NCBI RefSeq assembly: GCF_020252395.1
Contig: NZ_JADCDB010000009.1
Coordinates: forward strand, 62,001 to 126,000
Direction: 5' to 3'
DNA length: 64,000 bases
Source of the DNA: Aestuariivirga sp.
Lineage (GTDB): Bacteria; Pseudomonadota; Alphaproteobacteria; Rhizobiales; Aestuariivirgaceae
Part shown: piece after piece, positions 48,490-60,790 of the stretch
Layout of the letters: the number at the start of each line of letters is the position of its first letter
How positions within the stretch are numbered: position 1 is the first letter of the stretch
The notes under the pieces: model-generated
Told to the model about the DNA's origin: nothing
Database searches by the model: none
What the model saw: the letters and a program-made list of their open reading frames with translations, nothing else
Program-made: the position numbers and the translations under genes

Positions 48490-48534
48490 TGGCGACCCCG
48501 GCAGGATTCGAACCTGCGACCTAGTGCTTAGAAG
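48490..48534 (-). pseudogene. 3' half of a split tRNA-Arg(TCT) gene
   Basis: Reading the minus strand: anticodon loop CTTCTAA, stem strand GCACT, variable AGGTC, T-arm GCAGG-TTCGAAT-CCTGC, acceptor CGGGGTC, G, CCA. There is no matching 5' half to its right. The partner is the fragment at 60749-60790: joined, anticodon stem AGTGC/GCACT and acceptor GACCCCG/CGGGGTC pair perfectly. So this is the displaced 3' half of a host tRNA cut by the element. Confidence 0.92.
48526..48534. other. attL core
   Basis: 9-bp GCTTAGAAG, identical to the copy at 60749-60757. Sequence to its left is the host tRNA 3' half; to its right it no longer continues the tRNA, so the element begins here. Confidence 0.88.
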
Positions 48535-48558
48535 TCGTCACTTCCTACCCCTCCCCAG

Positions 48559-48638
48559 CCCTATTGTCAACCCTAAACACTAGCTTTTTCAGTGCGTTGG
48601 CGCTATACATTCCCTAAACTGCCCTAACCTTCCCTATC
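48559..48638. promoter_or_regulatory. Cluster of CCCTA(A/T) arm-type integrase-site candidates
   Basis: CCCTA words at 48559, 48571, 48612, 48622 and 48632; the last three are exactly 10 bp apart, on one face of the helix. Inverted TTTAGGG occurs just after the integrase gene (49922-49928), and CCCTAAC recurs near the right end (60704-60710). Repeated words at both ends of an integrated element are typical arm sites bound by the integrase N-terminal domain. Confidence 0.6.
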
Positions 48639-48644
48639 CCCACG

Positions 48645-48663
48645 CGGTTCGGAAACGGTTCGT
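48645..48663. repeat. Left copy of an end-associated repeat
   Basis: CGGTTCGGAAACGGTTCGT, itself a double CGGTTCG, is found again with one extra G at 60669-60688. Each copy lies 60-115 bp inside its attachment core, so it may bind Int, Xis or a host factor. Confidence 0.6.
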
Positions 48664-48699
48664 TGGCAGCGCAGCAGACGGTTCGCGGGAGGTGCAAAG

Positions 48700-49926
48700 A
48701 TGCCAGAGAAGCTCACTGAGGCAGCCATAAGGGCACTCAAGTTTGATGACAAGCCGGTTGTGGTCCGGGATGCGAAGGTTGCGGGGCTCCTCGTGGCCGT
48801 CAACAAGGGCAGCAAGTCCTACAAGGTGCAGCGCGACCTTTGGCAGGGACAGCGCGGGCGCAAGAAGCTGGTCAAGACGGTTCGCCACACCCTCGGGACC
48901 ACCGATGAGATGACACTTGATGAGGCGCGCTCCCGGGCCACCACCATCATCGAACAGATCAAGCGCGGCATAGACCCGAATGCGCCTGCACCCGCCCCGG
49001 CGTCTGACGCTGGCACTTGGACAGTGCGCCGGATGTACGATGAGTATGCAGCGGACCTGAGGGCGCGCGAGTGTTCAGAGCGGACTATTGAGGGCATAGA
49101 GGAGCGGGTAAGCCGCTACCTCACAGCTTGGGCATCGCTGCCCGTTGCCGAGGTCAAGCGCAGCATGGCGCGCGAGGAGCACCGGCGCATCACGCGTGAC
49201 CACGGCGCGACCTCTGCCAACAAGGCAATGCGTGACTTCCGCGCCGCGTACAACTTCGCAATGAAGGTTGTCGATGACCCGGACGCCCTGCCCGGCAACC
49301 CGGTTGAGGCCGTCACCTTCAACAAGGAGCGGGCGAGCAACCGCGTCATCATGCCGGATGAACTTCCCGAATGGTGGAGGCGCGTTCAGGCCCTGCCCAA
49401 CCCGCTGCGCCGCGACATGCACCTCCTCGGGCTCCTCTCTGGGCTGAGGCCCGGCACACTTGTCTCGCTCCGGCGCGAGTGGGTCAACCTGAGTGACAGG
49501 GCAATCTCAATCCCGCGCATGAAGTCGGGCCGGAGCTTTGACCTGCCACTGTCAGAGAAGATGGTTGAAGTGGTCCGCCATGCAATGGCCGCCGGAGAGG
49601 TCCTGTTTCCAAAGGCCCCTTGGCTGTTCCCAACGCGGTCAAGCATCACCAATGAGGTAATCGCAACGCAGGTTTGGAAGGAGAAGGCGCTGCCAAGCGA
49701 GACAGGTCACATACTCCGGCACACCTACCGCACCATTGCGCAGCGCGAGGCCATTGACCGCGTGAACGCGCGCCTGCTCCTTGACCATGCTGTGCCGGGC
49801 ATTGACGGCGTGTACATCCACGAGCGGGCGCTGTTCGACACACTGCTTGTTGAGCAGGAGAAGATGAGCGCAGCAATCTTGAAGCTGCTCACAACAAAGG
49901 TCCGCAGAATCGAAGGGGAAGTTTAG
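48700..49926 (+). CDS. Tyrosine recombinase / integrase
   Basis: 408 residues with an N-terminal DUF4102-like arm-binding domain (KLTEAAIRALKFDDKPVVVRDAKVAGLLV), SAM-like core-binding domain (~100-190), and catalytic domain. Active-site residues: Arg in LLSGLRPGTLVSL, Lys in MKSGRSFDLPL, HxxR in HILRHTYRT, His in LLLDHAVPG and Tyr in GVYIHER. GGGAGG lies 8 nt before the ATG. Its place beside attL and the 9-bp anticodon-loop core fit a tRNA-targeting integrase. Confidence 0.95.
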   Translation: MPEKLTEAAIRALKFDDKPVVVRDAKVAGLLVAVNKGSKSYKVQRDLWQGQRGRKKLVKTVRHTLGTTDEMTLDEARSRATTIIEQIKRGIDPNAPAPAPASDAGTWTVRRMYDEYAADLRARECSERTIEGIEERVSRYLTAWASLPVAEVKRSMAREEHRRITRDHGATSANKAMRDFRAAYNFAMKVVDDPDALPGNPVEAVTFNKERASNRVIMPDELPEWWRRVQALPNPLRRDMHLLGLLSGLRPGTLVSLRREWVNLSDRAISIPRMKSGRSFDLPLSEKMVEVVRHAMAAGEVLFPKAPWLFPTRSSITNEVIATQVWKEKALPSETGHILRHTYRTIAQREAIDRVNARLLLDHAVPGIDGVYIHERALFDTLLVEQEKMSAAILKLLTTKVRRIEGEV

Positions 49927-50103
49927 GGTTTACGGCACTGGACAAGGAAAGCTAAAGAGGGGGCAGACTAGGTATCTGCACTGGCTGGCTGGGATGCGCC
50001 ATGTGCGGGGAGCGCCCAAGGTACACAAGGGCGCGGGGCAACCCAGAGATGGCCCTGTCACTCAACCGGCCTGCCAAGGTGAGGCGGCCCGTGGGTGACT
50101 GCC

Positions 50104-50364
50104 ATGGAACAAGACACAATCAACGCAATTGCGGATGCCGTCGCTGAGCGCATCCTGAGGGACCTGCCCCGTGGGCGGGTGCCTGTTACGCCCGAGTATC
50201 TGACCGCCGAACAGGTGGCGCAGATGACGGGCTTCTCGCCAAAGGCGCTGGAGGCATACCGTGCCAAGCGCATCGGCCCCAACTACCTGAAGGTCGGACA
50301 CAGTGTGCGCTACCGCGCCGATGACGTTCGGGCTTGGGTTGAAGCTGGGGGGCCGGAGGCATGA
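50104..50364 (+). CDS. AlpA/MerR-like helix-turn-helix protein (excisionase or regulator)
   Basis: 86 residues from the ATG at 50104. The C-terminal half YLTAEQVAQMTGFSPKALEAYRAKRIGPNYLKVGHSVRYRADDVRAWVE is a winged-helix of the Xis/AlpA type. Such proteins control excision or activate element genes. It overlaps the next gene by 4 nt (ATGA), so it is coupled to the replication protein. Confidence 0.8.
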   Translation: MEQDTINAIADAVAERILRDLPRGRVPVTPEYLTAEQVAQMTGFSPKALEAYRAKRIGPNYLKVGHSVRYRADDVRAWVEAGGPEA

Positions 50365-59497: not shown

Positions 59498-60399
59498 GCT
59501 CGAAGTAAGTCGCATATGCGCTTCCCATCGACTTGAATCTTCCCGCCAAGAGGTCGCGCATAAATGTCGTGGCGACCATTCTTTGTGAGCCGGTCCACCA
59601 CTTCCAACTTGGGGTATTCGGAAACTTCGCCAACGCCGTGTCCCACCGAGATAGGCACGAATATCGTATATTTGCGCGATCGTGCAGGGTTTTCAATAGT
59701 CAGCTTTTTTGCAGAAGCAATGTATTGCAGAATTTCCCTTATGCCGACGGCATAAACCGCGTCGAGAAACACCTGTGTGTAAAGCTGAGGCTTGTCGTGG
59801 ACTTCGATCCACCGATAGACTTTTATCAGGTCCTCTACCTTCACCGTAAAATTCAGTTCTGGTGTAGTTACCTTCCTACCGGCCGCAAGTTGTACTGCAA
59901 CATACTTGGCGTGAACCTTTGATTCCATTCGGCTCGACCGAACCTCAATCGCGCCAAGGGATTTGCCCACCTCTCCTGCTAGTTCGCCGGTGTCTAGGTT
60001 CGAAACGTCATTCGCCAAAGAGCAATCGTTCCTCACGATCAGAAGGTCCGCTCTCTTGCCGTACTTGCAGGTATCCTTGATACCTTTGCGGTAGTGTTCA
60101 TCGAATCCCTCCTCTCCAGCGATGATTTTGCTGCTGAAACCATAGTGAATGGCTCGATACTCAGTCATCGCATCGTTGAGGGCCGCCGCTAGCGTTACTT
60201 CCGCCCAATCACCAAGAGCTTGCTCTGCTTGAAATTTGGAGTCGGCGAAACTTGGCACTCTGATCTTGGCTGGTTGCGGCGTCTCGCCCCCAAATTCGAG
60301 TTTGTCGGCTTCTATGCCCTTTTTCTTGAGTGAATTGATTGCATTGGCAAGTGGATTCTTGAGGGATTCGAGATAGCTCATGAGCACTTGATGGCTCAT
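59494..60399 (-). CDS. Putative type II restriction endonuclease (PD-(D/E)xK-like)
   Basis: About 301 residues from the Met at 60399 (frame open to 60429; another Met at 60381). KRADLLIVRND followed by GAIEVRSSRMES fits the spaced D...(D/E)xR/K-type metal site of PD-(D/E)xK nucleases, and the protein ends facing the methylase with a 4-nt stop overlap. Convergent nuclease and methylase genes are a common R-M layout. The nuclease assignment rests on context and this motif; AccI-like families are one candidate. AT-rich. Confidence 0.65.
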   Translation of the reverse strand: MSHQVLMSYLESLKNPLANAINSLKKKGIEADKLEFGGETPQPAKIRVPSFADSKFQAEQALGDWAEVTLAAALNDAMTEYRAIHYGFSSKIIAGEEGFDEHYRKGIKDTCKYGKRADLLIVRNDCSLANDVSNLDTGELAGEVGKSLGAIEVRSSRMESKVHAKYVAVQLAAGRKVTTPELNFTVKVEDLIKVYRWIEVHDKPQLYTQVFLDAVYAVGIREILQYIASAKKLTIENPARSRKYTIFVPISVGHGVGEVSEYPKLEVVDRLTKNGRHDIYARPLGGKIQVDGKRICDLLRA

Positions 60400-60575
60400 A
60401 GCTGGCGAAAGAACAAGAGGGCGGCACATTTAACAGTGCCAGGCACTGGGCACGTTGTGCCCACGGTCGTAGCAGTCGCCAGATATTTCCGGGCGAGTAT
60501 TCCGGCGAACGGACGATGCAAAGCATTGCTCAGCGAGGCCCGAAAGGGCGGCTACGAGTTGGTGTTTGGGATAGT

Positions 60576-60652
60576 TGGCGACCCCGGCATGATTCGAACA
60601 TGCGACCTACGGATTAGAAGTCCGTTGCTCTATCCAGCTGAGCTACGGGGCC
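60576..60652 (-). tRNA. tRNA-Arg(TCT), intact, carried by the element
   Basis: Full cloverleaf on the minus strand: acceptor GGCCCCG/CGGGGTC (one G-T), D-arm GCTC/GAGC, anticodon stem ACGGA/TCCGT around CTTCTAA, T-arm GCATG/CATGC around TTCGAAT, discriminator G, CCA encoded. It lies inside the attL-attR cores, so the element brought it. Its stems differ from the interrupted host tRNA with compensating changes, so it is a separate gene, not a duplicate. It is on the same strand as, and 97 nt downstream of, the broken host 5' half. Confidence 0.96.
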
Positions 60653-60668
60653 GTGATTTCTCTGATAA

Positions 60669-60688
60669 CGGTTCGGGAAACGGTTCGT
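60669..60688. repeat. Right copy of the end-associated repeat
   Basis: CGGTTCGGG plus AAACGGTTCGT, matching 48645-48663 except for one extra G. With CCCTAAC at 60704-60710 it forms the right attachment arm. Confidence 0.6.
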
Positions 60689-60748
60689 AAGCGGACCATG
60701 ACTCCCTAACCATCTGATATTCTTACACTCTCTCCACTCAGACCCGCC

Positions 60749-60757
60749 GCTTAGAAG
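60749..60757. other. attR core
   Basis: GCTTAGAAG, identical to attL. To its right the host tRNA 5' half begins; to its left the sequence (GACCCGCC) does not continue the tRNA. Confidence 0.88.
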
Positions 60758-60790
60758 GCACTTGCTCTAGTCCAGCTGAGCTACGGGGTC
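60749..60790 (-). pseudogene. 5' half of the split tRNA-Arg(TCT) gene
   Basis: Minus strand: GACCCCG acceptor, TA, D-arm GCTC/GAGC with AGCTGGACTA loop, A, anticodon strand AGTGC, loop CTTCTAA, then GC and loss of pairing. All missing parts are at 48490-48534. Its 5' end is 9 nt after the complex I subunit stop, so the tRNA probably used that gene's transcript or a promoter inside it. Confidence 0.92.

Follow-up and report, generated by a model that had tools for sequence, protein, structure and literature searches.

A candidate phage-satellite-like element of Alphaproteobacteria that splits a host tRNA-Arg gene and carries a complete tRNA of the same isoacceptor

What becomes of a transfer RNA (tRNA) gene when a mobile element breaks it and does not rebuild it? 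The question is raised by a 64,000-nt stretch of DNA from Aestuariivirga sp. (assembly GCF_020252395.1, contig NZ_JADCDB010000009.1, positions 62,001 to 126,000; hereafter the window), in which a 12.2-kb element lies between the two halves of a host tRNA-Arg(TCT) gene and carries a complete tRNA-Arg(TCT) of its own. Our preferred answer, to which we give a probability of roughly 0.84, is that this integrative element resembles a phage satellite, inserts by tRNA-dependent integration, and brings its own replacement tRNA.

The host gene is split in the anticodon loop. Its orphan 3' half is found at 48490-48534 and its broken 5' half at 60749-60790, both on the minus strand, and the two have in common only the 9-bp core GCTTAGAAG, present on the same strand at 48526-48534 (the integrase-side copy) and 60749-60757. 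Identity between the two ends is confined to this core; there is no block reaching the 3' end of the tRNA, so the target is not restored, and neither half is called as a tRNA in the window by ARAGORN or Rfam. When the halves were joined in a script, all 21 of 21 pairs formed in the acceptor, D, anticodon, and T stems, the sequence ended in CCA, and ARAGORN read it as tRNA-Arg(tct). This joined 78-nt sequence is present intact, at 100% identity, in 5 of 60 relatives, all of the same genus; hence, the split is not a chance resemblance. One same-genus genome (G018, locus L020) has an intact tRNA with homologues of the window's flanks on either side: 1070 nt match at 74% on the left and 710 nt at 88% on the right, where approximately 0.8 kb of additional sequence is also present. 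A pattern search of 36 other genomes of the genus, with chance matches sorted out by eye, found exactly one tRNA-like TCT arm in 32 and two in none; the remaining four (G022, G027, G029, and G035) gave no such arm, possibly because the tRNA is a variant, the assembly has a gap, or the gene is broken there too.

The complete tRNA-Arg(TCT) of the element (60576-60652, minus strand) is called by ARAGORN, forms 21/21 pairs, and ends in CCA. It is separated from the broken 5' half by the distal attachment arm (60653-60748, minus strand), in which the alignment of related loci identifies two GAACCGT repeats. In the host genome, a pattern search for TCT tRNAs found only the orphan 3' half and the tRNA of the element, and the 42 Rfam RF00005 loci run through ARAGORN yielded a single TCT gene, which appears twice in the output owing to the overlap of two loci. 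The assembly is a 46-contig draft whose tRNA list is missing Tyr, Ile(GAT), Ala(TGC), and Gly(TCC); since these include genes that any cell needs, a further TCT copy might lie in an assembly gap. The tRNA of the element is, with that reservation, the only TCT tRNA found in this genome. Native tRNA-Arg(TCT) genes from two other families of the order (L031 and L034) match it at 97.4% identity and the gene of its host matches it at 88%, which makes a foreign source likely.

The split tRNA and the intact tRNA borne by the element are confirmed, and the original prediction, drawn from the letters of this stretch, had described them correctly: both halves, the core, and the complete tRNA are where it placed them, the target is truly broken, and a tRNA of the same isoacceptor is supplied. 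The relatives also bear it out, with single TCT arms in place of a tandem pair and an empty site that reads as the joined tRNA. It rightly put the replacement on the strand of the broken 5' half and downstream of it, although the gap between them, given as 97 nt, measures 96 nt. The mechanism that it sketched is partly supported, and largely right, as discussed below.

We propose that recombination by the tyrosine integrase takes place between a short core of the element's attachment site (attP) and the anticodon-loop part of the host tRNA-Arg(TCT) gene. Unlike that of the usual tRNA-targeting elements, this attP would not contain the 3' half of the tRNA, and the host gene would therefore be left as two incomplete pieces. 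The element would cover the loss with its complete, same-isoacceptor tRNA, which has a fixed place in the distal arm of attP, roughly 100 nt away from the core, and which after integration would sit behind the 5' half of the host gene on the same strand. Excision would restore the host gene for as long as both halves remained intact; once a half or the integrase had decayed, the tRNA of the element would be the working copy and would be retained.

A whole tRNA does not need to match the stems of the host, and so the conserved anticodon loop could be used as a target in many hosts. When the halves of 11 TCT hosts were joined across hosts, the anticodon and acceptor stems paired fully in only 4 of 110 combinations, and of 165 pairings of the 3' part of an element's own tRNA with a host 5' half, 13 fitted (lesioned halves are included in both counts). 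We infer that carrying a whole tRNA removes the limit set by stem matching and that portability is its advantage.

The arrangement recurs. Relatives of the integrase in the species collection number 14 at 63-87% identity, with one more (62%) in G037; the latter lies beside an orphan TCT 3' half (L153 and L175), and no element tRNA occurs in the ~24 kb to the end of the contig. Counting the window, 13 of 16 integrase loci come from genomes in which a complete tRNA of the element type adjoins a broken 5' half. For five of these 13 (L147/L148 and L177-L180) the connection between tRNA and integrase is inferred, because they are on separate contigs. With further loci from pattern searches (L183 and L196-L201), the attachment arm plus a complete tRNA is found in 20 loci of alphaproteobacterial type, and in all 20 the tRNA has 21/21 pairs and CCA. 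A broken 5' half is readable in 19 of them, 92-114 nt (counted from T33) before the tRNA, and has been lost in L199. Repeats of the GAACCGT type form part of the same module: two precede the tRNA in the 13 aligned members, and the 12 members aligned on the other side have three copies or near-copies, represented in the window by the CGAACCGT sequences of the integrase-side arm (48535-48699).

The module could also be found without the use of any protein. Among 394 genomes of one family, the pattern of two repeats plus a tRNA was detected in 8, six of them new finds, and the reversed pattern in none. In a sample of the class, a close integrase was present in 2 of 385 genomes, one being the source genome and the other (G173) apparently a duplicate of L105/G085, to judge by a contig that agrees in number and length. 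The integrase also matched 90 phage and 34 plasmid records, in every case at less than 60% identity, and viral contigs searched with a single integrase protein or with the arm-tRNA pattern gave no match. Searching with an alignment retrieved an IMG/VR contig (L195) that codes for a 54% identical integrase together with AlpA-like and VapE genes, beside which is an orphan tRNA-Arg(CCT)-like 3' half (163-191). One genome (G048) has an orphan 3' half (L156, 1377-1405) and, about 28 kb away, an intact tRNA-Arg(TCT) whose 3' half is the same (L157, 9855-9931), possibly an ordinary tRNA-restoring element in the same tRNA.

The carried tRNA follows its target. In 18 of 19 loci (14 carrying TCT and five carrying CCT), the tRNA of the element is of the isoacceptor read from the broken 5' half, one branch having inserted in tRNA-Arg(CCT) and carrying tRNA-Arg(CCT). 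The orphan half beside the integrase of L107 reads CTACTAA; loci L082-L084, read in contig orientation, were left out. In seven of the eight other TCT hosts that have both parts, a pattern search whose chance matches were checked by ARAGORN found no TCT tRNA beyond that of the element, and three of the four CCT hosts searched show only the orphan half and the tRNA of the element.

Several observations weigh against replacement as the role of the carried tRNA. Three loci (L104, L105, and L081/L153 of G037) have the integrase and an orphan 3' half without an element tRNA or 5' half; their contigs end approximately 0.3 kb, 7 kb, and 24 kb past the integrase, before the far end. By pattern search, the genomes of L104 and L105 contain no complete TCT tRNA at all. 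The nineteenth locus of the isoacceptor comparison, L201, has a broken half that reads TTT, which we take, without being able to prove it, as decay. Sphingopyxis sp. PET50 (G088), whose genome is finished, holds a second tRNA-Arg(TCT) (C1:3070252-3070328; L209, 453-529), fully paired, with an unusual D arm and loop sequence, located beside tRNA-Gly(TCC) and an open reading frame (ORF) that we take to be a DNA methyltransferase; it may be part of another island. Because of this second copy, the replacement tRNA need not be essential in that host. A further CCT tRNA is present in the CCT host G087, a metagenome-assembled genome (MAG) labelled Thioalkalivibrio that may be a mixed bin. Finally, no consensus promoter match was found in the window between 60400 and 61300, the 96-nt arm included.

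How the tRNA would be expressed is suggested by its surroundings. The broken gene starts 9 nt after the end of a co-directional host gene, NDUS4-like (60800-61108, minus strand), and the tRNA of the element comes next on the same strand, so that read-through from the host transcript is plausibly its simplest source. The sole terminator-like site (60441-60422, minus strand) is located past the tRNA of the element and scores no better than chance. The RNA from the broken half to the tRNA is predicted to fold no better than its shuffles (z -0.86).

The most viable of the alternatives, though an unlikely one, is that the carried tRNA mainly serves the AGA/AGG-richer genes of the element, its match to the target being secondary. 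Six genes of the element have AGA at 16 of 225 Arg codons, and eight host genes at 0 of 102; among host ORFs called mechanically and sampled at a third-position GC content (GC3) of at least 0.75, 16 of 56 contain AGA, which accounts for 23 of 1326 Arg codons. Since AGA is commoner in the element, its tRNA may help its genes too. Service to translation, however, does not account for a tRNA that tracks the isoacceptor of its target, CCT included, and that always adjoins the attachment arm. Somewhat less likely still is a role in counter-defence, with the tRNA serving as a decoy for anticodon nucleases and other defences that cleave tRNAs, or as a spare when they strike. Such a role was suggested for phage tRNAs (PMC10865867) and could act alongside replacement, but it leaves both the broken host halves and the isoacceptor following the target unexplained. 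A tandem pair of host genes that predated the insertion might be suggested by the common strand and 96-nt spacing of the two tRNAs, yet we regard it as highly improbable given the exact empty site, the single TCT arms of the genus, and the arm between the tRNAs, which carries the integrase-side repeats in all aligned members. An assembly or binning artefact, conceivable for a 46-contig draft with several family members in MAGs or on two contigs, is just as improbable considering the exact empty site in relatives and the same layout in the finished chromosome of Sphingopyxis sp. PET50 and in two megabase contigs (L196 and L197).

If the carried tRNA is a replacement, its decay-dependent retention may have left traces. 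Of 14 pairs of halves flanking elements, nine join to a perfect tRNA and five have lesions: one anticodon-stem mismatch in each of L145 and L146, no CCA in L149, an acceptor mismatch in L177, and broken D and anticodon stems in L154 (a MAG), where the integrase also has two stops. All 29 native genes without an insertion were perfect, a contrast that is only suggestive because 26 of them come from one genus. Furthermore, L198, L199, and L201 have kept the arm and the complete tRNA with no family protein detectable in the sequence downstream (~58 kb for L198 and L201, ~7 kb for L199). The lesions and these three tRNA-only loci hint at lock-in. The original prediction had likened the element to an addiction device, and this is only partly right: clean excision of the present copy would restore a perfect host tRNA, and therefore it is not such a device in the usual sense, while the predicted lock-in by decay has its signs in the relatives and not in this copy. 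On balance, we lean towards the broader view of a satellite-like family with a tRNA in its attachment module, whose isoacceptor has changed together with the target (TCT or CCT), a family in which decay of the host halves or of element genes would turn the carried, foreign gene into a permanent replacement of an essential host tRNA gene.

The gene content is that of a putative satellite. Starting from the integrase-side arm, the element codes on the plus strand for the tyrosine integrase (48700-49926; Phage_integrase and Arm-DNA-bind_3, phrog_1), an AlpA-like helix-turn-helix (HTH) protein that is a possible excisionase (50095-50364; HTH_17, phrog_66), a VapE-type primase-helicase (50361-52748; PF05272, phrog_256), a serine resolvase/invertase (53285-53908; PF00239), and a protein weakly resembling the terminase small subunit (TerS; 53880-54380). 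The combination of integrase, AlpA-like regulator, and primase, found with Pfam and PHROGs, is as in satellites resembling phage-inducible chromosomal islands (PICIs). The TerS-like match is weak in the window (phrog_309, E 1.3e-4) and scores better in relatives, with homologues to 3e-17; in L108 a TerS-like homologue is followed by the terminase large subunit. No capsid or tail family was matched among the 12 ORFs of the element scanned with Pfam and/or PHROGs. On this gene content we call the element phage-satellite-like.

The cargo is a type II restriction-modification system (57765-60429) within a block of lower GC content (0.51-0.58 over 57-61 kb). It consists of an Eco57I-type methyltransferase in two overlapping ORFs (57765-59497, plus strand; Pfam scan) and an AccI-like restriction endonuclease (59494-60429, minus strand; PF09545), and is possibly a second stabiliser of the element. 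Other cargo in relatives (L108, L110, L145, L146, and L149) includes C5 or N6/N4 methyltransferases and glycosyltransferases.

Classical tRNA-targeting islands (Islander type) restore their target from attP. The element described here shares with them the tyrosine integrase and the tRNA target, which in this case is not restored. With PICI-like satellites it shares the integrase, the AlpA-like regulator, the VapE-type primase, and the lack of a capsid or tail match in the ORFs tested, and possibly a TerS-like protein; it differs from PICIs in its serine resolvase and, in the relative L108, in the terminase large subunit.

The principle of breaking a tRNA and carrying another is already published. 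tRNA-dependent lysogeny was defined in a study that proved it by genetics in mycobacteriophages, noted a prophage of Lactobacillus johnsonii, and raised the question of its frequency elsewhere (PMC10865867). As described there, actinobacteriophages (Fionnbharth, cluster L, Gaia, and others) have in common with our element a tyrosine integrase, a short core (8-17 bp in those phages, 9 bp here), a target that is not rebuilt, and a carried tRNA of the same isotype. They are complete temperate phages, however, whereas this element is satellite-like, and the tRNAs described for them are located elsewhere in the genome (overlapping gene 37 in Fionnbharth) instead of being fixed beside attP; the targets here are Arg(TCT) and Arg(CCT), and the hosts are Alphaproteobacteria (PMC10865867). 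In that form of lysogeny the target is the only gene of its kind, as was found in this draft genome and not in G088. Closer in taxonomy, two Sinorhizobium meliloti prophages break tRNA-Leu(UAG) and carry the same isoacceptor (PMC11476347). Both cases involve Alphaproteobacteria, a target broken centrally, and a carried tRNA closer to those of other genera; the Sinorhizobium case differs in being one of prophages, in two strains, and in tRNA-Leu (PMC11476347). No such case was reported for phiLM21-like prophages (PMC12429752).

Our literature search found no such satellite family in tRNA-Arg named, tycheposons being among the elements considered. As far as that search reaches, what is new is the satellite-like family, the tRNA fixed to the attachment module, the matched change of isoacceptor, and the possible permanent replacement. 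Host tRNAs apparently replaced by mobile ones would be natural cases of a testable route for tRNA gene turnover, and freedom from host stem sequences is a suggested reason for carrying a whole tRNA. Compared with the known systems, these loci extend tRNA-dependent integration from mycobacteriophages to small satellite-like elements of Alphaproteobacteria, and they add a family, a module design, matched isoacceptors, and signs of permanent replacement to a principle established in complete phages.

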